A stretch of DNA of 64,000 bases, taken from contig NZ_NSKH01000023.1 of assembly GCF_003144095.1 (NCBI RefSeq), forward strand, positions 248,001-312,000. The letters run 5' to 3'. This document shows positions 390 through 14,328 of this stretch, piece after piece (the first letter of the stretch is position 1; each line of letters opens with the position of its first letter). Under the pieces are notes generated by a model, which searched no databases, was not told where the DNA came from, and saw nothing but the letters and a program-made list of their open reading frames with translations. Both the position numbers and the translations under genes were made by a program. This DNA is from Streptomyces sp. ICBB 8177. GTDB taxonomy: Bacteria; Actinomycetota; Actinomycetes; Streptomycetales; Streptomycetaceae.

Positions 390-1493
390 TCATCCGGGGG
401 CGTCGGGCCGTTCGGAGTTCTCGGGGCTGTCGTCTGCCCGTATCGGCGGTCCCAGTGACCGACCGCCGCGGTGAGCCCAGGGGTCACCGAGGACGACCTG
501 GATGATGCCGGTGACGGGAATCGCCAGCAGGGCACCGAGGATCCCGGCGACTTCGGCGGCGATCAGGGTGGCCAGCAGCACGGTGAGGGGGTTGAGTTTC
601 ACCGTCCGGGACAGGATGACCGGTTGCAGGAGGTGGTTTTCGGCCTGCTGGTAGACGATGAAGAAGATGACGGCCCCGATGCCGGCCGGCAGGGAGTGGA
701 CGAACGCCACTGCGGAGGCGACGACAGCTCCTATGGTGGCTCCCACCAGGGGAATGAGGTCGGTCACGGCGACGAAGAGAGCCAGCAGGCCGGCGAACGG
801 CACTCCGGAAACCAGCAGGACGACGTAGGTCAGAAGCCCGCAGATGACGCTGATCAGCAAGTTCCCGGTCGGATAGCCGTTCACGGTACGGGCGCACGCG
901 GCTCCGACGCGGCGTATGCGGGCCGCGGGCGCCTCGTCCACGAAGGCCAGGGACCGGTCTATGGCCCTGGGGCCCTCCAACACCATCAGGTAGGCCAGCA
1001 CGAAGATGGTGAGAGCGCCTGCCGCGGTGCTCGCGGCACCACGGAGGAACTTCGCGACGGGCGTGCTCAGACCGGTGGCGAACGCGCGGATCTGCGCCTG
1101 ATGGTGCTGGACATACCGCAGGGCGTGTGTCCGCTCCAGCAGATTGCCGACTGGCCCGCGGCCGGCCTGGGCGTCCCTGATCATCGCGGGCAGGCGACCG
1201 GCGAACCGGCTTCCCTCCTGGGCCAGGGGGATGACGAACAGGGCGACCACCGCGCCGAGTGCCGCGGCCGCAGCCAGGAAGACCAGCAGGGCGGCCACCT
1301 ACCGTCGGCACCGGGGCGCCCGTCGCTGCAGCGTTTCGACCGCTGGATGAAGGGAGACGGCCAGGAACAACGCGATGACCGCCCAGATCAGGACCCGTCG
1401 AGCCTGGACCACCAGCTCAAGTGCGACGCAGGTGGCGAGCACCAAGCCGATGGTGGCGAGAATGGTTCGCACCGGAACCGGACGCGTCGCCAT
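390..1493 (-). pseudogene. AI-2E family (PerM-type) transporter interrupted by an in-frame TAG
   Basis: A polytopic membrane protein of the AI-2E exporter/PerM family (Pfam AI-2E_transport). Reading from the ATG at 1493, residues 1-64 hold the first helices (AVIALFLAVSLHP). The frame then meets TAG at 1299-1301 and continues with no frameshift from the next codon, GTG (VAALLVFLAAAAALG). It runs through the conserved core (LISVICGLLTYVVLL, VTDLIPLVGATIGAV, QQAENHLLQPVILSR) to a stop at 390. The total of 367 codon positions is normal for the family. As read, only a 64-residue N-terminal peptide, or a GTG-started 302-residue remainder, would be made. A base error or strain-specific nonsense mutation is as likely as real decay. 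Confidence 0.8.
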
Positions 1494-1661
1494 GGGCACC
1501 GGGTTCCCAGCCCCGGTCACGGGAAAACGAGCCCCGAGGTGGCTGCCGGGTCCGTCACGTCCTGGGCGCCGAGGCGTCCTGGGCACCGCCGCACCCCAGG
1601 TGCGGATCCCCCGGCCGAGTTGCAAGCTGATGCCGTGGGCCGTGACTGTCGAAGGAGTGTC

Positions 1662-1808
1662 ATGGGGGCGGTGGCCGCAGGCGCGATCTCCGGACCGCAG
1701 GTCCGGTGGGGGACAAAGCCGTCGGTCGCGGGCGTGACCGCGCCGGACCGGCTGGCGGCAGTCAGACGCGGCCGGCTGACGCATGCGACTGCAGGGTCCG
1801 CGCCGTGA
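1662..1808 (+). CDS. 48-residue peptide, diverged copy of the membrane peptide at 2514-2660
   Basis: The ATG follows a GAAGGAG ribosome binding site. The reading frame has exactly the same length (48 residues) as its counterpart at 2514-2660 and shares the start (MGAVAAGAISG against MVAVTAGVIAG) and the terminal TGA that overlaps the next GTG. The hydrophobic C-terminal half of the other copy is lost here: AGVTAPDRLAAVRRGRL replaces AGVIVAILLLPVTC. It can therefore no longer form that membrane helix and is probably a decaying duplicate. I do not recognise a function. Confidence 0.4.
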   Translation: MGAVAAGAISGPQVRWGTKPSVAGVTAPDRLAAVRRGRLTHATAGSAP

Positions 1809-2517
1809 CCGAGAACGCGCCGCGACCGACGACGACCGGCGCGCGGCGGCCCTGTCTGTTCGTGAATCCGCGCTCGGGCGGGTGGTCCTGATCGATGCTT
1901 CCCTCGCCGGGGAACCGGCGGCGCTCGCCCGACGCGCGGGGGAGACGGCGCGGATCTTTACACGGCCGCTTGTCGCCGAGGTGGCTGCGGAGAGCGGACT
2001 GCCCTTCGTGGTCGTTCCGGCGGGTACCCGCAACCACCTCGCGATGGCTCTCGGCCTGGACCGTGCCGATCCCCACGGCCGCGCTGGAGGCCCTGACGAA
2101 CGCCCGCTCGCCCGCGTACCCGAGATCCACGCGCAGCTCCACGCCGTCCGTCAGGGCCTCCAGCGCGGCCGAAGGGCCCTCACGGTCCAGACCGAGATCC
2201 ATCGCGAAGTGGTTGCAGGTGCCCACCGGAACGACGACGAAAGGCAGGCCGCTTTCCGCGGCCACCTCGGCGACAAGTGCCTGCGTGCCGTCTCCGCCGG
2301 CCACTCCCAGCAGATCCGCACCGTCATCCACCGCGGGTCGGGCGACAGCCGCCAGGTCCTGAGGCAGGGAATGATCGATCAGAAAGACCTGGGCCCCTAA
2401 CGCCCGGGCCCGGTCCGCGATCCGGAACCGGCTCGCTTTCCCTCCACCCGAACGCGGATTCACGATCAGATACGGCCGCCGCGCGCCGGTCGCAGGCCGT
2501 GACGCGTTCCCGGTCAC
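1762..2517 (-). pseudogene. Truncated diacylglycerol kinase-like (LCB5/DagK fold) gene
   Basis: Starting at GTG 2517, the protein reads VTGNASRPATGARRPYLIVNPRSGGGKASRF, then GVAGGDGTQALVAEVAAESGLPFVVVPVGTCNHFAMDLGLDR. These are the two hallmark blocks of the DAGK catalytic domain (VNPxSGGG and GGDGTxxxVA...PxGTxNxFA). Homology stops near GYAGERAFV at about 2100. Beyond that the frame reads the antisense of the opposing copy down to the stop at 1762. The C-terminal half of the fold is therefore missing, although the ATP-binding half looks intact. It is translationally coupled (GTGA overlap) to the 48-residue membrane peptide upstream. Intact relatives phosphorylate diacylglycerol or related lipids. 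Confidence 0.7.
1805..2096 (+). pseudogene. Degenerate diacylglycerol kinase-like gene fragment
   Basis: The frame starts at a GTG overlapping the preceding stop (GTGA) and encodes VTENAPRPTTTGARRPCLFVNPRSGG, which matches the N-terminus of the minus-strand kinase copy. It then hits a TGA and shifts to another frame (VVLIDASLAGEPAALARRA, then LVAEVAAESGLPFVVVPAGTRNHLAMALGLDR). Two segments are missing: the region after the glycine-rich VNPRSGGG motif, and the GGDGT ATP-binding motif that defines the DAGK catalytic domain. It is a nonfunctional copy. The plus-strand frame after 2096 runs into the opposing copy. Confidence 0.7.
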
Positions 2518-2735
2518 GGCACGTGCCCAGAAGCCAGGTGCAGCAGCCTGGCGCAGGTCACTGGCAACAGCAGGATCGCCACGATCACGCCTGCAGCCGG
2601 CCGGGTCGTCCGCCACGGGGCCGACGCACCGGCGATCACACCTGCGGTCACCGCCACCATGACACTCCTTCGACGGGTGTGGCCTACGGCACCAGCTTGC
2701 CGCTCAGCCTGAGCATCCGCACCTGGGCCGTATGT
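2147..2735 (-). repeat. Right arm of the large imperfect inverted duplication
   Basis: This is the minus-strand counterpart of 1598-2096. It is the better-preserved arm and keeps the full 48-residue membrane peptide and the kinase ATP-binding half, including GGDGT. It is about 90 bp longer than the left arm because of the deletions there. Confidence 0.7.
2514..2660 (-). CDS. Small membrane peptide (48 residues) coupled to the DAGK-like gene
   Basis: ATG at 2660 follows a GAAGGAG box. The product MVAVTAGVIAGASAPWRTT continues into a single hydrophobic segment (AGVIVAILLLPVTCARLL) and ends HLASGHVP. It looks like a one-helix membrane peptide. The stop codon overlaps the kinase start, so the two were translated together. 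I do not recognise the family. Its duplicated neighbour at 1662-1808 has kept the length and lost the helix. Confidence 0.55.
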   Translation of the reverse strand: MVAVTAGVIAGASAPWRTTRPAAGVIVAILLLPVTCARLLHLASGHVP

Positions 2736-2912
2736 GGTTGACAGGCCATCGCCGTTGAGGTTCATCACGCCCTGGCGCCCAGGCAGTACTGACTCCCAGG
2801 GTGTGTCCGGTGGGTTGCGCTGGTACACAGCCCTGTCATGCGGCCGTCGGTCGATATCTGGGTGGGCTGGGAGGAGGTGACTTGGGCGCCCGGCGCAGCG
2901 ACGTCGCAAGGA

Positions 2913-3113
2913 TCAGATGACGCTCACACCTGTGGCTTGGGGGCCCTTGGGGCCCTGGGTGACCTCGTACTCGACCCGCTGGCCCTCCTCCAAGCTGCGC
3001 TAGCCGGTTGCCAGGATCTCGGAGTAGTGGACGAAGAGATCGGGGCCGCTGTCCTGCTCGATGAAGCCGAAACCCTTGTCCGGGTGGAACCACTTGACGG
3101 TGCCCTGTGCCAC
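2913..3113 (-). pseudogene. CspA-type cold shock protein gene with an in-frame TAG
   Basis: The GTG at 3113, with AGGAG upstream, begins [21 protein letters not shown], followed by [13 protein letters not shown]. These carry the RNP1 (KGFGFI) and RNP2 (DLFVHY) motifs of the nucleic-acid-binding cold shock fold. The next codon, at 3000-3002, is TAG. Reading continues in the same frame as RSLEEGQRVEYEVTQGPKGPQATGVSVI and ends at TGA 2913. With the TAG counted as one residue the protein would be 66 residues, a normal CspA length. At this position relatives have Tyr or Phe, so a single TAC-to-TAG change explains it. As read, only a 37-residue piece lacking the last beta strands would be made. Confidence 0.85.
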
Positions 3114-3880
3114 GCCTTGCTCCTGCTGTGTCGTACCCGTGTCGGCGGCGCCATTGTCGCCTCACGCACCTGTCAGGCGAGCGGCCGACACGCCTGCTCT
3201 CCGGGACGGTTGCTCTGGGTCGTTCGTGAGCACGACGGACCGGATGACAGAGAACGGCAGGACTCCCGGCCAGCCCAGCAGCCGCACTCCAGCGGCCCCG
3301 GAGCCGGCCCGAATGTGCACTCCGGGGACCGCCGTCGCACACCACTTCTGACTGTCGTAAGTCACGGTTCATCATCGGTGTGGCCAGGGAGGGCGGCCGC
3401 ATTGACACTCCGTACTTCGCCCGGAGGAGCGGGCTCCGGGCGTCGTGGCCGAGGGCGGACGGGGCCTGGAAGCGCGCTGACGGCCGCCGACGATGGCGCT
3501 GCCGTGGGGGAGCGTGTGCGAGGTCTCCGTCCGTACCGCCACCGGAGACGTTCGTTGTTCCTGGCGAGATGATGCGCCCGGCTGACTCAGGGTGGCGCCC
3601 AGGCACACGCGCAGGCGGGTCTACACGATCCGGTGCAGAGCCGCGTTCGCTCGCCGGTCGCAGCGGGCTGTGTTCGTCGCCATCGCATCCGGATGCACGG
3701 CGCGCAAGGCGAAGACCGAGCCCGCGAACTCGCCGCTGCACTCCGCGCCGACCGCGAGCGGCGACGAGTTGCGCACTGCCGACGGTCCGGCGGCAGCGCA
3801 GGCGTATCACAACGGCCTGGCCGGCGGCGATCTTGCCGGCGAGGACCCATGCCAGGACAACGGCGTATGTTGGAGGTGGG
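3114..3880. other. Non-coding or unrecognised stretch between cold shock gene and VOC gene
   Basis: About 770 bp with only overlapping, low-complexity frames on both strands. None shows a domain I recognise. The ends of two minus-strand transcription units flank it, so it may contain the promoter of the cold shock gene and degraded sequence. Confidence 0.4.
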
Positions 3881-4777
3881 CTACGCGTCCGTCTTCGGTG
3901 CCGGCTTGGCGGCGCTGAGGACGGAGAAGCGCAGGGGGTTCCCGGAGGGATCGTGTGTGGTCAGGTGGGTCCCTGCACGCTGGTGCGGATGGTCGGCGGC
4001 GGTAAGCCGTTCGGCCAGTGCCTCGATCGCCTCCGGATCGGTCAGCCGCATGTCGACGCAGGTGAGCCGGGTGGTGTCGGGTCCTGCGGGCGTGCCTCCG
4101 TGCGGGCTGAACCGGTCGGTGAGGACGAGGAGACTGCGGTAGTCGCTCACGCCTACGCCGATGAACCCGTCTCCCAGGCGGGCGTAGATCTCCAGGCCCA
4201 GCAGGTCGCGGTAGAACGGTGTGGTGCGGGTGAGGGCGGCGTCGGTCGCCTTGAGTTGGACGTGTCCCATCTGTGTCCCGGCCGGCAGGGGTGCGGGCGT
4301 GCTCGCTCCGGGTTCGTCGAGAAGGTCCTGCACAGCGATCGAGGTGGAGACCACAATGGGCAGGCTCTCGTCGGTCCACTGCCATCGCTCCTGCGGGCAG
4401 GCCCAGGTCACCTCGATCGTGTGGCCGTCGGGATCGGTGACGTAGCACGACTGGCTCACGACGTGGTCGCGCGGGTCGACGTCGAGTCCCGCATCGAGGT
4501 GCCGCTGGGTGAAGCGGGCCACGTCCGCCCTGGCCGGCACCAGCGGCGCGAAGTGGCTGAGCCCGGGGCTGGAGGGTGGCGGCGCGACAGCCCCGGCTAC
4601 CTCGTGCAAGTCGACCAGCACCTGTCCTTCAACGCCCAGTTGTGCTCGCTGTGGTTGGCGATCGAGGAGGCGGAAGCCTGCGACCTGCGTGTAATAGCGC
4701 ACGCTGCGTGCCAGATCGGCCACCGTCAGCGTGACGGGTCCGAGGGTGAGTGTCCGGTCCATCCGGTAGTCGGTCAT
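3881..4777 (-). CDS. VOC family (CatE-like) ring-cleaving dioxygenase
   Basis: A 298-residue protein with two vicinal-oxygen-chelate modules. Module 1 begins LGPVTLTVADLARSVRYYTQVAGFRLLD and ends YVTDPDGHTIEVTW. Module 2 begins MGHVQLKATDAALTRTTPFYRDLLGLEI and ends LTTHDPSGNPLRFSVL. The layout matches CatE/YfiE-type extradiol dioxygenases that open catechol-like rings using Fe(II). Candidate metal ligands are the His of MGHVQL and the Glu of HTIEV, but I cannot model the site. The ATG at 4777 was chosen because module 1 starts directly after it. It is the last gene of a five-gene minus-strand cluster, so it may act on the product of the FAD monooxygenase upstream. A glyoxalase/bleomycin-resistance role is a less likely alternative. 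Confidence 0.8.
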   Translation of the reverse strand: MTDYRMDRTLTLGPVTLTVADLARSVRYYTQVAGFRLLDRQPQRAQLGVEGQVLVDLHEVAGAVAPPPSSPGLSHFAPLVPARADVARFTQRHLDAGLDVDPRDHVVSQSCYVTDPDGHTIEVTWACPQERWQWTDESLPIVVSTSIAVQDLLDEPGASTPAPLPAGTQMGHVQLKATDAALTRTTPFYRDLLGLEIYARLGDGFIGVGVSDYRSLLVLTDRFSPHGGTPAGPDTTRLTCVDMRLTDPEAIEALAERLTAADHPHQRAGTHLTTHDPSGNPLRFSVLSAAKPAPKTDA

Positions 4778-4953
4778 GGTCGACCTTTCATCCGTGCTGC
4801 GACTCGGCGGGAACCGAGCGGTGTGCGAGCCGCAGCGTGGCCGGTGTTGCGGCCCTGCTCGCAGCCAAAGCGCAGCCTTCACCGGCGTACCGGCGTGTGA
4901 AGTGGGCTGGGGGCCGGGACCGTCGTGTGAGAGGAGGTCGTGCGGGAAATCCT

Positions 4954-5535
4954 TCAGGAAGCCGGCGAGGCTGCGCTGCTGCGGGTGTAGGCGAGGGCGT
5001 TGCTCCAGGACAGGAGCTGGTCGAGCATTGCCGTCACAGCGGGGCCCTGGTGGTCGCTGGGGGTGAAGGTGGCGCCGAAGTCGGCGAAGTCGGTGCGCAG
5101 GTTCAAGGTGACGGTCGCGGAGACGTCCGCGAGCTTTAGGGCGCCCAGGACCGGGCGCAGGGCTTCGACGGCGCGCACGCCGCCGTCGAAGCCGTAGGAG
5201 ACAAAGCCGACGGCCTTGTTGTTCCACTCGGCGTGGACGCGGTCGAGGGCGTTCTTCAGGACGCCGGGGAAGGAGTGGTTGTACTCGGGGGTGACGAGCA
5301 CGTAGCCGTCGTAGGCGGCGACGGTCGTGGCCCACTGCCGGGTGTGCGGGTGGGTGTAGCGGCCCATGGCGGGCGGGAACGGTTCGTCGATCTGCGGCAG
5401 GTCGACCTGAGCGAGGTCGATCAGGTCGTAGTCGGCGTCCCCGCGCTTTCGGGCCTGTTCCAGGACCCACTGTGCGACGCGTCCGCCGGCACGTCCGGTG
5501 CGGGTGCTGCCGAGAATGATCGCGATCTTCGTCAT
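4954..5535 (-). CDS. NADPH-dependent FMN reductase
   Basis: A 193-residue flavodoxin-fold protein. It opens with MTKIAIILGSTRTGRAGGRVAQWV, the FMN-phosphate loop of the FMN_red family (GSTRxGR). It also carries the conserved VTPEYNHSFPGVLKNALD block that shields the isoalloxazine ring. It reduces flavin or quinone substrates with NADPH in the cytoplasm. ATG 5535 follows a purine-rich GGAGGCACG. It lies between the alpha/beta hydrolase (146 bp upstream) and the VOC dioxygenase, so supply of reduced flavin or quinone detoxification for this cluster is a reasonable inference. Confidence 0.85.
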   Translation of the reverse strand: MTKIAIILGSTRTGRAGGRVAQWVLEQARKRGDADYDLIDLAQVDLPQIDEPFPPAMGRYTHPHTRQWATTVAAYDGYVLVTPEYNHSFPGVLKNALDRVHAEWNNKAVGFVSYGFDGGVRAVEALRPVLGALKLADVSATVTLNLRTDFADFGATFTPSDHQGPAVTAMLDQLLSWSNALAYTRSSAASPAS

Positions 5536-5681
5536 CGTGCCTCCGGTGGATGAAGGGATGGTCGGTTCCCCGCCCCGCGCGGTCGGTGTGCGACGACCGC
5601 GCGTGATGAGTCCCACGGGCGCCCGCTTGCCGAGGGGCGATGCCGGCGCCGGCCGGCAGAGGGGGCACCAGGGGGCAGGGT

Positions 5682-6437
5682 TCAGCGGCCGGCGGCCGGG
5701 GCCCGGGGGGTGAGGAAGGAGTCCAGAGCGGTGAAGACCGTCTCGGGCTTCTCGCGGATGGGCAGGTGTCCTGCGCCGGGGATGAGTGCGAATCGCGCGT
5801 GGGGGAACTCCGCGGCGTAGGCGCGGCCGAAGTCGGGGGTGACGACTGTGTCGTCCGTGCCCCAGATCACCAGGACCGGGCAGGTGACGGTGGAAAGGCG
5901 GGGCAGCATGCCGGCGTCGCCCATGGCCGGGCCGGCGTAGGCGTGCATGGCGGCCATCGACTGCGCGGAGGGTCCGCCCTGCGGCGCTGCCGGTCCTGTG
6001 GCCGCCGGAGCCGGTGGCCCGGTGGGCACGGTGATCTGCTGGCCGGGTATGACGGGGCCGATGGCGTCCATGAGGACGAGCTTGGAGATCCGGCCCTCGC
6101 GGTCGTCCAGGACGGTCTGGGTGGCGACCCAGCCGCCGAAGGACGTGCCGATCACCGTCACGTCGCTCAGTGAGAGGTGGCCGAGCAGGTCCAGGTAGGC
6201 AGCGGCGAGTGCGGGCACGCAGTCCAGATCGTCAGGCCGTACGGTGCCCTCCCAGCCCGGATGGGTGGGCGCGATCACCCTGTGCTCCGGTGCGAGGTGG
6301 TCGATCAGGGGAGAGATGCTGGACGGGCCGGCGCCGCCGTGCAGGACGAGGATCGGGCTGCCGCTGGTGCCGGCCGCGCGCACGTCGAGGTCGAGGCCGG
6401 GCCGTACCGGAATGGTCCGCTGATGGGGTGCGGTCAT
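5682..6437 (-). CDS. Alpha/beta hydrolase
   Basis: A 251-residue alpha/beta hydrolase. An oxyanion-hole HGGAGPSS motif follows the first strand (residues about 33-40). The nucleophile elbow is GTSFGG (Ser near residue 98), with an acid candidate in VIWGTDDTV and the catalytic His in PGAGHLPIREKPE. The fold matches esterases or C-C hydrolases, and the substrate is not readable from the sequence. It starts 61 bp after the monooxygenase stop, which suggests co-transcription. A meta-cleavage-type hydrolase role beside an extradiol dioxygenase is attractive but inferred. Confidence 0.85.
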   Translation of the reverse strand: MTAPHQRTIPVRPGLDLDVRAAGTSGSPILVLHGGAGPSSISPLIDHLAPEHRVIAPTHPGWEGTVRPDDLDCVPALAAAYLDLLGHLSLSDVTVIGTSFGGWVATQTVLDDREGRISKLVLMDAIGPVIPGQQITVPTGPPAPAATGPAAPQGGPSAQSMAAMHAYAGPAMGDAGMLPRLSTVTCPVLVIWGTDDTVVTPDFGRAYAAEFPHARFALIPGAGHLPIREKPETVFTALDSFLTPRAPAAGR

Positions 6438-6498
6438 GAGGTGCTCCTGGATGCGGGGGGTTCGGTGGCTGAGGGCGCGGTGGCCGTCGGGACTGCCC

Positions 6499-7641
6499 TC
6501 ACCGGGCTGCCGGGCCGGAGGTGAAGAAGGCGACCATCTGCTCCAAGCCCTTCTCGCCGAACATCGTGTCCAGGTTGGCGGCGGACTCGGCGGCGGAGGC
6601 TTCGCTGCGCGGGAAGAGGGCCTCCTCGTACGCTGCCAGGGCGGCTTCGGCGTCGCCGGGGTGGGCGGCGACGGCCAGGGCGAGTTCGGCGCCGTCGAGC
6701 ATGGCGAGGTTGGCGCCCTCCCCGGCGAAGGGGGACATCAGGTGGGCGGCGTCACCGAGCAGCGTCACGCCCGGGACGCGGTCCCAGCGGTGCCCGACGG
6801 GCAGGGCGTGGATACGGCGCGGGGTGATCGTGTCCGCGTCGGCGACCAGGCCGCGCAGACCCTCGTCCCAGTCCTCGAAGTGGGCGAGGACCGCGGCCTT
6901 GGCGGCGGCCTGGTCGGTGAAGTCGACTGTGTCCAGCCAGCCTTCGTCGACCTTGAGCGCGGTGTAGACGTGGAGGCTGCCGTCGGTCTCCCGGTGCGCG
7001 AGGACACCGCGTTCGCCCCCGAGGGCGATGAAGAACCCGCCGCCGATGACCGCGGCGCTGCGCGGGTGGCGGCTGTCAGCGTCGAACAGGTCGGTCTCGA
7101 CGAAGGAGATGCCGGTGTAGGCGGGCCAGGCGCTGGAGACCAGCGGCCGGATCCGGGACCAGGCGCCGTCCGCGCCGATCAGGAGATCGGTGGTGATGGC
7201 CGAGCCGTCGGCGAACGTCACCTCATGACGGCCGTCGCCCAGCACGCGGGCCCCGGTGACCTTCCGGCCCCAGTGGATCGTGCTGTCGGGCAGGGAGCCC
7301 AGCAGCAGGTCACGCAGGACGCCGCGGTCCACCTCCGGCCGGCCGCCGGTGCCGTGGTCCTCCTCGTCCACGTGCACGGTGCCGTCGGGGCCGAGCAGGC
7401 GCATGGCCTGACCGCCCTCATGGACGATCTTGAGGAAGTCGTCATGCAGGCCGGCGGCGTGCAGGGCCTTCTGCCCGTTGCTCTCGTGGATGTCGAGCAT
7501 CCCGCCCTGGGTGCGGGCCGCCGCCGACGCCTCCAGCTCGAAGATCGCCGACTCGATGCCGTTGACGTGCAGGACGCGGGCGGCGGTCAGGCCGCCAAGA
7601 CCCGCACCGATGATCGCTATCGGGAAATGAGTGGTGTTCAT
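6499..7641 (-). CDS. FAD-dependent monooxygenase (TetX/PHBH type)
   Basis: A 380-residue group A flavoprotein hydroxylase. The N-terminal Rossmann dinucleotide motif is IAIIGAGLGGLTAARVL. The mid motif is LLIGADGAWSRIRP (DG motif), and the C-terminal FAD motif is VTLLGDAAHLMSPFAGEGANLAMLDG (GD motif). Family members hydroxylate aromatics or inactivate drugs such as tetracyclines using NAD(P)H and O2. ATG 7641 follows GGAGGCCCCC. The upstream region carries two adjacent palindromes (7776-7802) matching the one before the tetR gene, so the gene is probably repressed by that TetR. Its neighbours (FMN reductase, hydrolase, ring-cleavage enzyme) fit a small aromatic or xenobiotic degradation unit. 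Confidence 0.9.
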   Translation of the reverse strand: MNTTHFPIAIIGAGLGGLTAARVLHVNGIESAIFELEASAAARTQGGMLDIHESNGQKALHAAGLHDDFLKIVHEGGQAMRLLGPDGTVHVDEEDHGTGGRPEVDRGVLRDLLLGSLPDSTIHWGRKVTGARVLGDGRHEVTFADGSAITTDLLIGADGAWSRIRPLVSSAWPAYTGISFVETDLFDADSRHPRSAAVIGGGFFIALGGERGVLAHRETDGSLHVYTALKVDEGWLDTVDFTDQAAAKAAVLAHFEDWDEGLRGLVADADTITPRRIHALPVGHRWDRVPGVTLLGDAAHLMSPFAGEGANLAMLDGAELALAVAAHPGDAEAALAAYEEALFPRSEASAAESAANLDTMFGEKGLEQMVAFFTSGPAAR

Positions 7642-8733: not shown

Positions 8734-8739
8734 GCCGGT
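8734..8739. repeat. Target-site duplication, left copy (GCCGGT)
   Basis: GCCGGT directly abuts the outer end of the left 53-bp terminal inverted repeat. The same six bases in the same orientation abut the right end at 9604-9609. This is the direct repeat expected from transposition. Confidence 0.75.
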
Positions 8740-8792
8740 TGGCTTTGTTCACGAGAACGGACAGCGGATATTCACCACTTCGGGAGGCACCT
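8740..8792. repeat. Terminal inverted repeat, left (53 bp)
   Basis: Perfect inverted match to 9551-9603. The outer end is TGGCTTTGTTCAC and the inner end is GGGAGGCACCT. Confidence 0.9.
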
Positions 8793-8824
8793 GCGGCGGA
8801 GCCTGTTCGAGCGGCGTCCTAGCG

Positions 8825-8853
8825 GCCGGGCGCCACGCTCGGCGGCGCCCGGC
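8825..8853. terminator. Hairpin downstream of the element's gene
   Basis: The arms GCCGGGCGCC and GGCGCCCGGC are perfect 10-bp complements with a 9-nt loop. They lie 13 bp beyond the stop codon of the minus-strand gene inside the element. The position fits a factor-independent terminator, although no U tract follows, as is common in Streptomyces. Confidence 0.55.
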
Positions 8854-8866
8854 TGTCCGTCGGAGG

Positions 8867-9379
8867 TCAGACGGTGGGCGTCGCAAAGAGGTAGTGGGTC
8901 TTCTCCGTCTCGTTGCCTTGGTGGCTCCGGCCTACGAGCACCTGGCCTTCGGGCGCGCGGACGTCGTGATCCGGCTCCTCGGCAGTGACCCACTCGCCGT
9001 GCTGGAAGGACAGAGGATGCTCGGTGTCGTTGATGTGCACGGTGACCGGGGCCGACTGGTACTCCGTGGGGCCGTTCTCGTCGTCCTGGTGCCAGCGGCC
9101 CGTCAGAACGTGTCCCTCTTCAGCCTCGAACCGGGAGCTGCTCTCCGTCTGCGGCTCTGACCAGGAACCTGTACCTACGGTCGTGCGGTATTCCCCTTCG
9201 GGAGTCACAACAACCAGTGCAGCGTGGTGGTAGCAGGTACTGCCGTTCTCGTCCCCCTGGTGGGAGCGGCCAATCAGAACCCTCCCGTCCGGTACGACGT
9301 AGCGGGTGCCGTCCGACTCCTTGAAAGCCTCGCTGGTCTGCATGTCACGCACCTGGACACTCCAGCCCTCAGAGCCCAT
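8867..9379 (-). CDS. Unrecognised three-repeat protein (GRxHQxDENGxTxY repeats), cargo of the element
   Basis: A 170-residue, acidic, soluble protein with no signal peptide. It contains three internal repeats of about 45-50 residues. Each has the block VLxGRxHQxDENGxTxY: VLIGRSHQGDENGSTCY, VLTGRWHQDDENGPTEY and VLVGRSHQGNETEKTHY. Each repeat is preceded by an acidic or charged turn and followed by a short beta-rich stretch. The conserved His, Asp, Glu and Asn could bind a metal or sugar, or could simply be turn residues of a beta fold. ATG 9379 is chosen because of the strong GAGGAGG upstream. I do not recognise the family. It is the only gene in a transposon-like element, so it is cargo rather than transposition machinery. 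Confidence 0.8.
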   Translation of the reverse strand: MGSEGWSVQVRDMQTSEAFKESDGTRYVVPDGRVLIGRSHQGDENGSTCYHHAALVVVTPEGEYRTTVGTGSWSEPQTESSSRFEAEEGHVLTGRWHQDDENGPTEYQSAPVTVHINDTEHPLSFQHGEWVTAEEPDHDVRAPEGQVLVGRSHQGNETEKTHYLFATPTV

Positions 9380-9507
9380 CAGCAATCCTCCTCGCGTCAC
9401 GGGACCAGCCGACTGCCGGCAGGTCCCGGCACCATCTTCTTCGGGCGAGGACCTCGGTTCTCCGAGAAGATCAAAAGGTCACTCTGTCGGGGTGGGTTTT
9501 GGCCGGT

Positions 9508-10512
9508 TCAACGTCGGTGCCAGCTGGCTGTTCGAATCTTCGGGTCAGCCAGGTGCCTCCCGAAGTGGTGAATATCCGCTGTCCGTTCTCGTGAACAAAG
9601 CCAGCCGGTGGGCTCTGCCGCCTGGGGACGGGTTGCCGCCAGACTGGCGAGGAGCTTGAGGTGGTCTTCGGAGGTGCTGCCGGGTTCGGCGGTGTAAAGG
9701 CTCAGGTCGTGCACGGCTCGCTGGGATACGGGCAGGTCCACAGACTGGTAGGTCAGCTCCAGGAGACCGACCTCGGGGTGTTGCAGCCGTTTGATGCCCT
9801 CGTAGCGGATACGGACGTCGTGCGCGGCCCACAGCGTGCGGAAGTCGGAGCTGAGGGTGGACAGCTCACCGATCAGCTCGCGCAGGGCACGGTCATGCGG
9901 CTCACGCCCGGCCTCGGCGCGCAGCAGCGCGACGGTAGCGGCGGCGCCGGCGTCCCAGTCGACGAAGAAGTCCTGTGAACCGGCGTCGAGGAAGTGGTAG
10001 CGGGCGAAGTTGGCACGGCCGTGGCTGTGGGTGGTGGGGGTGTGGGTGGTGGGGCTGTCGAACATCGGCGCGTGCAAGGCCCGGGCCGACGCGTTGGTGG
10101 CGATGACGTCCAGTCGGCCGTTGCGCACGAAGGCGGCGGACATCGTGATGGAGTCGAGCAGCCACTGGATGCACGGTGGGGCTTCGACGTCCCTGCGGCG
10201 CGACGGTGTGCGGCGGGCGGGACGGGAGGCGCGGGCCAGGTCGAACAGGTAGGTGCGTTCGTCCTCGTCCAGTTGCAGAGCCTGGGCGACCGCGGTGAGG
10301 ACGTCTTCGGACACCCCGCTGATGTGGCCCTTTTCCAGGCGGGTGTACCACTCGGTGCTCACCCCGGCCAGCACGGCGACCTCCTCACGGCGCAGCCCGG
10401 GAACCCGGCGTCGACCGCTGGTGGGAAGCCCTGCCTGCTCCGGGGTGATCTTCGCGCGACGGCTGGCAAGAAAGTCCCGGATCTCCGCGCGGTGATCGTG
10501 TTGGTCGTCCAT
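9508..10512 (-). CDS. Xre-type regulator with MmyB-like ligand domain; C-terminus rewritten by the insertion
   Basis: The helix-turn-helix is at about residues 20-75 (PTSGRRRVPGLRREEVAVLAGVSTEWYTRLEKG). It is followed by the MmyB-like/PAS-type ligand domain (ATNASARALHAPMFD, ARYHFLD, DFFVDWD, LSSDFRTLWAAHDVR, HPEVGLLELTYQS). These regulators usually control an adjacent oxidoreductase. ATG 10512 was chosen because the family starts MDDxxxxRAEIRDFLxxRRAK. The natural end would be about AAEPTGRLS. The transposon-like element instead appends about 32 foreign residues (WLCSRER...ASWHRR) before a stop at 9508. The domain core is intact, so function may survive. Remains of a divergent alcohol dehydrogenase gene lie directly upstream. 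Confidence 0.85.
   Translation of the reverse strand: MDDQHDHRAEIRDFLASRRAKITPEQAGLPTSGRRRVPGLRREEVAVLAGVSTEWYTRLEKGHISGVSEDVLTAVAQALQLDEDERTYLFDLARASRPARRTPSRRRDVEAPPCIQWLLDSITMSAAFVRNGRLDVIATNASARALHAPMFDSPTTHTPTTHSHGRANFARYHFLDAGSQDFFVDWDAGAAATVALLRAEAGREPHDRALRELIGELSTLSSDFRTLWAAHDVRIRYEGIKRLQHPEVGLLELTYQSVDLPVSQRAVHDLSLYTAEPGSTSEDHLKLLASLAATRPQAAEPTGWLCSRERTADIHHFGRHLADPKIRTASWHRR
9551..9603. repeat. Terminal inverted repeat, right (53 bp)
   Basis: Perfect reverse complement of 8740-8792. On the minus strand its bases now encode the artificial C-terminus of the Xre regulator (WLCSRERTADIHHFGRHL). Confidence 0.9.
9604..9609. repeat. Target-site duplication, right copy (GCCGGT)
   Basis: Same orientation and sequence as 8734-8739. 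It lies in the last codons (Thr-Gly) of the original Xre gene. Confidence 0.75.
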
Positions 10513-10837: not shown

Positions 10838-11758
10838 GTGGATCTGACGTCCGATCAATCCGCAATCGCGGTAGAACGAAACGACTGTCTGAAATATGAA
10901 GCCCGGTCGGCAGTCCCTGCCGCACCCGCGGCGGAGATGCGCGACGGAGTACCACCGCCCGCTTCATCCTCGTGCCCGCACTCCGCGAGGAACTCGACGT
11001 CCCCGTCCCCGTCCCCGAGGACCGCGGACCAGGGACGCACCTGGAAGCAGGGACCGCCCGTCGAGGCGGCGCCGGCCGCCACGGCGGCCAAGCCGATCCG
11101 CATCGGGTACGCGCGCTGCTCTACCGCCCAGCAGGAGTCGCAGAGCCAGCTCGACGCTCTCCGGCCGCTCTGCAAGCGGATCTTCTCCGAGAAGATCAGC
11201 ACGTGCGTGAAGACCCGGCCGAAGCTTCAGGGGGCGCTGAGGCTGGCGTACGACATCAGGGAGGCCGCCCCCGACCAGGAGGTCATCCTCACCGCCCACT
11301 AGCTCAAGCGCCTGGCCCGCAACGCCGCCGAGCTGATGACGCTGTCCGGCTAGCAGGCCGCAGCCGTCCAGCTCGAACTCCTCACCGGCCCGCTCAGCGG
11401 CATCTACGACCCCAACGGCATGGGCGCGAGGTTCTTCGCCGTCCTGGCCGCCGCCGCCCAGATTGAGCGGAACCACATCCGCGAGAAGCCCCTCGAAGGC
11501 CAGCACGCCGCCGCGGCCAACGGCAACTACGGCGGGCGGCCGAAGGTCATCGACGACGACATGCTCCACTTCGCCCGTGCGTTGAAGAACCGCGGTGTCC
11601 CCGTCCCGGAGATCGCGAAAAAGCTGACCATCAAGACGGGTAAGAACGTGGGCCAGCATCCCTCGGTGGCCTCGGTCTACCGGGCCCTCGCTGAAGCGGA
11701 GGCGAGCGAGGCACCAGCGGGGACGGAGATCATCGCCCCGCGCCGGCCTCGGGCGTGA
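10838..11758 (+). pseudogene. Serine recombinase (resolvase/invertase) with two in-frame TAG codons
   Basis: From about 11092 the frame encodes KPIRIGYARCSTAQQESQSQLDAL with the catalytic Ser of the GYARCS motif. FSEKIS and DQEVILTAH follow, then TAG at 11300-11302. LKRLARNAAELMTLSG follows, then a second TAG at 11351-11353. QAAAVQLELLTGPLSGIYDPNGMGA and AQIERNHIREKPLEGQ follow, and the C-terminal part (GGRPKVIDDDML, PVPEIAKKLTIKTGKN, SVASVYRAL) ends at TGA 11758. No frameshift is needed across the whole length. The first TAG replaces the Glu usual in this family (TVHELKRL). The first 80 or so codons show no homology, and the natural start is probably near 11080. It is most simply a decayed mobile-element recombinase. 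Confidence 0.8.
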
Positions 11759-13098: not shown

Positions 13099-14328
13099 GT
13101 GCAGGTCCCCTTGAAGGAGAGTGAGTACCCCCTGTCCGTTCCGATCAAGAAGCTTTTACCCAACTCCAGGGGACAGGTGCGCTACCGGTTCGTAGTCGAC
13201 GTAGGCATCGACCCTGCCACCGGGAGGCGCAAACAGCTGACTCGTACGTTCGCCACTCTCAAGGAGGCGAAGGCTGAGTGCGCGCGCATCACCAACCGCC
13301 GCGAGGAAGGGACGTTCGTACCGCCCAACCAGATAAATGTAAATGAGTGGCTTGATCGGTGGCTGGCCATGAAGGCAGAGGATCTGGAAGAGACCACTAT
13401 TTACAACTATCGGGTTACCCTCGATCGAGTTCGGGGGAGGCTGGGGCGCATCCGGCTTCAAGAACTCACCGAGGAAGATGTAGAAAATTGGATGCACTGG
13501 GCGTTGAAGCATGGGCGGGTACGCGGTGACAAAGCAGGTACTCCGCTTGGAGTGACCAGCGTGGAGATGAGTCTCGCCCGATTGAAGGACGCCCTGAATC
13601 GAGCCGTTACGCGTCGGCTAGTAACCATGAATGTAGCCCAACATGTGACCATCCCACGTAGGGCACGTAAAGAAGAGCGAAAGAAGAAGCAGGAGGTGAA
13701 GCCGTGGAACGTGCAGGAGATTCAGACGTTCATTCACGGTGTCCGGACAGAACGGCTTTACGCTGCCCTCTTGCTGTCCCTCATGGGTCTATGCCCGGCT
13801 GAAGTCTGCGGACTCCGATGGGAAGACGTGGACTTGGAAGCCGCCACGATCACCATAGCCAACACGCGGACGATGATGGGAAATCGGTACGTTGTGGAGA
13901 AGGACACCAAGTCCCTGGCTGGGGAACGGGATCTTCCTTTGCCGGCACCGGTGCTGGCTGCCCTCAAGTCGTTCAGGGCTCTCCAAGCCAAGGAGAAGCT
14001 CGTCCTCGGTGAGGCTTACTCGGATTCCGGATACGTCGTGGTGCACGAGACCGGGGCAGCCTTCACGATCAAGCAGCTCCGCAGACGCGCTTACCGGCTC
14101 ATGGAGATCCTTGAACTCCGCAGAGTGCGCCTCTACGACGCTCGCTCCTCCTGCCTCACATACCTCGCCAACAAAGGCGTGCCGGATCACATCCTTGCCC
14201 GGTGGGCCGGACACACGAACGTCAAGACCACCAAGAAGTGGTACGTGAAGCCGGACGTGGAGGACCTCCGCGGAGCCGCCACAACGTGGGACGGCCTGCA
14301 CGGTGCTGCGACGGAGGGGCAAGCGTGA
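13099..14328 (+). CDS. Tyrosine recombinase/phage-type integrase
   Basis: A 409-residue integrase. It has an N-terminal arm-binding region (VPIKKLLPNSRGQVRYRFVVDVG, then an Arg/Lys-rich stretch), a SAM-like core-binding domain (INVNEWLDRWLAMKAEDLEETTIYNYRVTLDRV) and the catalytic domain. Catalytic residues are visible: box I Arg in AEVCGLRWEDVDLE, Lys in TKSLAGERDLPL, Arg in RLYDARSSCLTYLA, His in RWAGHTNVKTT and nucleophile Tyr in KKWYVKPD. The first His of the HxxR box is Tyr here (LYDAR). Codon 20 is TTA (13156-13158), read by the bldA tRNA in Streptomyces, so translation may be development-linked. The GTG at 13099 is the furthest start and uncertain. Third positions are less GC-biased than in neighbouring genes, consistent with horizontal origin. 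Confidence 0.9.
   Translation: MQVPLKESEYPLSVPIKKLLPNSRGQVRYRFVVDVGIDPATGRRKQLTRTFATLKEAKAECARITNRREEGTFVPPNQINVNEWLDRWLAMKAEDLEETTIYNYRVTLDRVRGRLGRIRLQELTEEDVENWMHWALKHGRVRGDKAGTPLGVTSVEMSLARLKDALNRAVTRRLVTMNVAQHVTIPRRARKEERKKKQEVKPWNVQEIQTFIHGVRTERLYAALLLSLMGLCPAEVCGLRWEDVDLEAATITIANTRTMMGNRYVVEKDTKSLAGERDLPLPAPVLAALKSFRALQAKEKLVLGEAYSDSGYVVVHETGAAFTIKQLRRRAYRLMEILELRRVRLYDARSSCLTYLANKGVPDHILARWAGHTNVKTTKKWYVKPDVEDLRGAATTWDGLHGAATEGQA

Follow-up and report, generated by a model that had tools for sequence, protein, structure and literature searches.

The window analysed here is a stretch of 64,000 nucleotides from Streptomyces sp. ICBB 8177 (contig NZ_NSKH01000023.1). A gene for an Xre/MmyB-like regulator is broken in it by a mobile unit of 864 bp (window 8740–9603), which has a single copy of GCCGGT on each flank and one predominant gene inside. 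The features are as follows, by window position.

8734–8739, no strand: target site duplication, left copy (GCCGGT); identical to 9604–9609, and joining of the flanks gives the natural Xre stop
8740–8793, plus strand: left terminal inverted repeat, 54 bp, starting TGGCTTTGTTCACGAG; exact reverse complement of 9550–9603; family terminus conserved over ~51 bp
8746–8766, plus strand: left end, direct repeat unit 1, putative IstA site L1; 23-bp offset peak in self-comparison of the terminus, as in element L259 (see below)
8769–8789, plus strand: left end, direct repeat unit 2, putative IstA site L2; same 23-bp offset
8867–9400, minus strand: passenger gene for a three-fold repeat protein of 177 aa (GTG start) or 170 aa (conserved ATG at 9379); open reading frame, with a 59% identical relative in cassette L152 having the same start; predicted all-beta
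9508–10512, minus strand: Xre/MmyB-like regulator, broken at its extreme 3' end; PF17765 (MLTR_LBD) and PF13560 (HTH_31), translations, uninterrupted relatives
9550–9603, minus strand: right terminal inverted repeat, 54 bp; exact reverse complement of 8740–8793
9554–9574, minus strand: right end, direct repeat unit 2; mirror of 8769–8789
9577–9597, minus strand: right end, direct repeat unit 1; mirror of 8746–8766
9604–9609, no strand: target site duplication, right copy (GCCGGT); matches the left copy, flank joining

The unit, its host gene and its passenger

The two termini are exact reverse complements of each other over 54 bp (TGGCTTTGTTCACGAGAACGGACAGCGGATATTCACCACTTCGGGAGGCACCTG). The transposon-like unit of 864 bp with perfect termini and GCCGGT duplication, as described in the initial annotation, is therefore confirmed, with the length of the termini corrected from 53 bp. 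The 59 bp at 98% reported by the repeat finder results from the palindromic CCGG within the flanking duplication. Both ends are of the IS21 type, i.e. bounded by TG/CA and containing two direct repeats 23 bp apart; the peak at the 23-bp offset is seen on self-comparison of the window end, of the family consensus and of both L259 ends. Conservation of the family terminus drops beyond approximately position 51. Some ends of other elements (L070, L071, L081, L113 and L143) have an additional repeat unit, the third and a weaker one, ~65–75 bp inside, which suggests more than two transposase sites there.

With the element in place the Xre reading frame is 334 aa long, its stop codon lies inside the element and the last ~31 aa are element-derived. 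When the flanks are joined and one duplication is kept, the protein is 306 aa long and ends in AAEPTGRLS followed by the stop. Ten Xre homologues in other genomes (66–76% amino acid identity) end near the same point and have no element. Removal of the unit thus restores the frame to a natural stop, as had been proposed; the uninterrupted form is that of homologous genes in relatives, as distinct from an empty site in the same strain. The recognised domains lie upstream of the insertion, and the regulator may therefore still work.

Regarding the passenger protein, a length of 170 aa is probable since its nearest cassette relative, in L152, starts at a methionine matching window position 9379. 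The structural model, predicted from a two-sequence alignment, consists of beta-rich repeats (mean pLDDT 81.5). The other relatives are chromosomal, 37–44% identical and probably secreted; they have probable signal peptides, which the window passenger seems to lack. No family match was found in Pfam, NCBIfam or PHROGs. The initial annotation had called this a previously unseen repeat protein; that holds for these family collections, but not for the relatives in L152 and on chromosomes. The fold search gave no PDB match at E ≤ 0.001; its sole significant match, and best viral one, was a phage 'binding domain' model (TM 0.73 by query length), a predicted resemblance which hints that the passenger may be a binding protein. 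Scone-E, the best hit in the search of solved structures (E 6e-4), was rejected, as no stretch was significant alone.

Two further features of the window were noticed by eye. Three overlapping open reading frames in different frames at 10838–11758 (plus strand) resemble a frameshifted serine recombinase (...IRIGYARCSTAQQESQSQLDAL...), and a 409-aa open reading frame at 13099–14328 (plus strand) resembles the tyrosine integrase of an integrative element.

A family of cassettes with diverse cargoes

Among Streptomyces plasmids, 18 records have the same ends, and in most of them the paired ends enclose other genes. The terminus pattern has matches in 28 of 392 genomes of the order, while the reversed control pattern had no reported match in the same scan. 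Across 84,980 species genomes the pattern picks out 91 stretches, with Streptomyces predominating and the rest in Kitasatospora, Actinacidiphila, Streptacidiphilus, Streptantibioticus, Sphaerisporangium and Spongiactinospora. A search with a sequence model of the terminus, whose E-values are rough, finds ends at E ≤ 0.001 in 200 of 395 genomes of one family, presumably Streptomycetaceae. No match to the pattern was found in the viral contigs scanned. Fixation of the termini at one locus, which according to the initial annotation would refute its reading, is ruled out because the ends are found at many unrelated sites. The search that it had recommended yielded the parent type and other cargoes; empty sites were obtained only in the form of uninterrupted homologous genes.

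End pairing and removal of duplicates gave 90 distinct elements of 747–4771 bp. Exact target duplications of 6–8 bp flank 41 of them (30 of 6 bp, 10 of 7 bp and one of 8 bp). The other 49 lack an exact duplication, which age, deletion, recombination or imprecise calling of the ends could account for. Of the 69 elements of an earlier set, 32 had duplications, as compared to 0.5 expected by flank shuffling (maximum 5 in 2000 shuffles). Chance is therefore not the explanation of the duplications, given this excess and the 41 of 90 in the larger set. Full-length elements 80–99% identical to each other all lie in unrelated flanks. Specifically, L085 and L100 are 98.8% identical over 3097 bp and have different duplications, GGCCGG and GCCCGT, respectively.

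The 90 elements contain 124 predicted genes in about 58 gene clusters, both counts being approximate because gene prediction was simple and GC3-based. None of the elements has an internal match to IstA or IstB. Recognised cargoes include SUKH, SDR, aldo/keto reductase (AKR), MFS, methyltransferase, FKBP, PNPOx, glyoxalase-like, ricin-B-lectin-like and GNAT proteins, and some enzymes are paired with a regulator (TetR with SDR, TetR with AKR, Xre with a quinone reductase (Flavodoxin_2), MerR with MerB). Regulators, oxidoreductases, hydrolases and transporters make up the majority of the recognisable cargoes, and proteins of unknown function also occur. A MerR-type regulator together with a mercury-related gene is present in L123 (561–2397) and L235 (962–2312); MerR and MerB were confirmed by Pfam in L123, and the L235 genes were judged by eye. 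The commonest passenger is a protein of ~370 aa that contains CxxC motifs and matches no family. Whole or as a fragment, and several times frameshifted, it occurs in 14 cassettes (L010, L012, L015, L058, L060, L065–L068, L072, L079, L105, L161 and L164). This protein of the ~1.4-kb elements was considered as a new transposase and rejected: searches of Pfam, NCBIfam and PHROGs matched it to no transposase, and it is missing from other elements.

Probable IS21-type parents and the proposed mode of movement

L259, a contig of 3518 bp from a sister species in the same genus, is bounded on each side by a family end, and between these ends it has genes for IstA (PF22483 Mu-transpos_C_2, rve), IstB (PF01695 IstB_IS21) and a leucine-rich repeat (LRR) protein. 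That the entire contig is one element suggests that the assembly was broken at a repeat. Close relatives of the L259 IstA are common on Streptomyces plasmids, and those examined have family ends immediately upstream of istA. Among the sample of IstA elements that was read, relatives at ~70–75% identity or less had no clear family ends by profile. Four complete IstA/IstB elements are flanked by duplications (CCTGCC, ACCATGA, AGGTGTT and GCCGCC). Autonomous elements with matching ends are L259, L276, L279, L300 and L302, where matching means the same design and ~75% identity, as opposed to identical sequence. The IstA/IstB ends compared are 62–77% identical to cassette ends, and the nearest to those of the window are ~75% identical, so the exact partner of the window subtype is not among the elements compared. 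The parent of cassettes of the window type is likely an IstA/IstB element of the IS21 family resembling L259. Two further observations concern such elements. L300 (NZ_CP129139.1, 4001 bp) is labelled a linear plasmid, contains a complete IstA/IstB element of 3123 bp with the duplication AGGTGTT, and may be an assembly fragment. L080 has a 94.5% identical IstB fragment (3945–4109) at ~250 bp from a cassette end, on its outer side.

Taken together, it is highly probable that the window unit represents an IS21-type transposable cassette which is non-autonomous, carries only a passenger and is moved by IstA/IstB from elsewhere. Such movement in trans was already assumed in the initial annotation, and it gains support from the lack of internal IstA/IstB and from IstA/IstB elements with the same end design. 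In the proposed mechanism, an autonomous IS21-family element elsewhere would supply IstA and the AAA+ ATPase IstB. Each end, a TG/CA-bounded terminus of ~51 bp with its two direct repeats 23 bp apart, would be of the kind that an IstA tetramer recognises. IstA/IstB would then synapse both ends and join them to the target, leaving duplications of 6–7 (rarely 8) bp. The ends alone would be required in cis, and the interior could therefore be any small gene unit. From the sequence we infer that the window cassette was mobilised in trans in this manner and that its insertion was recent.

The similarity to IS21 ends might instead be convergent, the mover being another TG/CA recombinase of the Tn7-, Tn552/Tni- or Mu-like kind. 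These families have TG/CA ends and repeated binding sites in common, and transposases with the Mu-type domain PF09299 are encoded in 14 of the 28 cassette-bearing genomes. When PF09299 was searched in these 28 genomes and the surroundings were scanned, the regions contained no family end, except those of an already known cassette in L203, and a Mu- or Tni-type mover was rejected. In L084, from Sphaerisporangium album, a TnsA-TnsB-TniB operon adjoins a family-like end. This operon belongs to an apparent Tn7-like element of ~5.4 kb (895–6346) with its own, different terminal repeats, while the adjacent end is part of a separate 237-bp mini-element (6374–6610) that has family-like ends and the duplication GGCGCG; the operon was accordingly discarded as the mover. 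Since elements encoding IstA/IstB bear ends of the family design and matching duplications, we regard another recombinase as very improbable.

It is somewhat easier to imagine, though still unlikely, that the unit is a relic, i.e. a mini-element which captured a gene once, is now fixed and has had no recent mobility. Its own genome contains one full copy and no close IstA (no match at E ≤ 1e-30), as a relic would predict; two weak solo ends are also present there, and their vicinity has no IstA/IstB match. Against this, neither the 54-bp ends nor the duplication has lost its exact match, and the insert is missing from relatives of the host gene. As for the cargo, the cassettes could have spread as defence or immunity units, the passenger being retained because it protects the host. 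The SUKH (SMI1/KNR4) family is known to include toxin-immunity proteins, and six elements form a cluster of this type. On the other hand, PADLOC models gave no match to ten unknown cargoes including the window passenger, metabolic or regulatory functions predominate among the cargoes that are recognisable, and cargo diversity counts against one common benefit. We therefore consider a protective role quite unlikely as the cause of the spread, and the 'selfish or defence-type cassette' of the initial annotation does not find support.

A broader interpretation, to which we give about an even chance, is that Streptomycetaceae share an economy of gene cassettes which IS21-type transposases keep in motion. 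The ~51-bp ends would serve as a generic container that many unrelated small operons have entered, in many cases a regulator together with the enzyme or transporter it controls. These would travel between chromosomes and linear plasmids, integron-like in effect but made by transposition. This offers a concrete, testable route by which small regulated operons (MerR with MerB, TetR with an oxidoreductase, TetR with MFS) may pass between chromosomes and linear plasmids. Such cassettes occur in about half the genomes sampled from a bacterial family known to produce antibiotics, and their cargoes have until now been annotated mostly as 'hypothetical protein' or as ordinary genes. Moreover, the IstA requirement for two repeats 23 bp apart predicts a minimal end.

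Comparison with known systems

Passenger-only elements and passenger-bearing insertion sequences are established kinds of mobile DNA. The former, mobile insertion cassettes (MICs), were first described in Bacillus cereus with IS231 ends. Like them, the window unit is a passenger between insertion-sequence-like ends with a target duplication and no internal transposase, and its mobility needs an enzyme in trans. The qnrD mic element is another example (PMC3913671). Unlike these, cassettes of the Streptomyces type have IS21-type ends (two repeats 23 bp apart) and duplications of 6–8 bp, and they shuttle about 58 gene clusters across one bacterial family and beyond; passenger-only cassettes are otherwise known from few examples. 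In the open-access papers searched, neither an IS21-based passenger-only family nor such a system in Streptomyces is described, and an IS21 cassette system of this diversity appears to be undescribed within that literature.

For IS21 ends, a structural study reports a spacing of 23 bp between the direct repeats, a need for two complete ones, and a terminal CA (PMC10122671); duplications of 7–8 bp (PMC3281130) and an actinobacterial IS21 with 54-bp ends (PMC2516522) are on record. The window unit resembles IS21 in its TG/CA ends of ~50 bp, in the tandem repeats 23 bp apart and in duplication length, and autonomous relatives with such ends exist. It differs in lacking istA and istB, and its ends share ~75% identity with the nearest of the autonomous ends compared. 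As it encodes no IstA/IstB, the unit is IS21-derived in its ends rather than an IS21 insertion sequence; the cassettes are best described as mobile-insertion-cassette-like IS21 derivatives, because IstA/IstB elements share their end design and duplication length. Transporter insertion sequences (tIS) likewise combine insertion-sequence ends with passengers, and L259 (LRR gene) and L302 (HAD hydrolase) fit this class, but a tIS retains its own transposase, which the window unit lacks. Tn3-derived TIMEs and bacterial MITEs are also non-autonomous and mobilised in trans, although their end type and transposase are different and MITEs are usually gene-free. With integron gene cassettes the family shares interchangeable units of one to few genes; it appears to be set apart by many insertion sites with target duplications in place of attC and an integron integrase.
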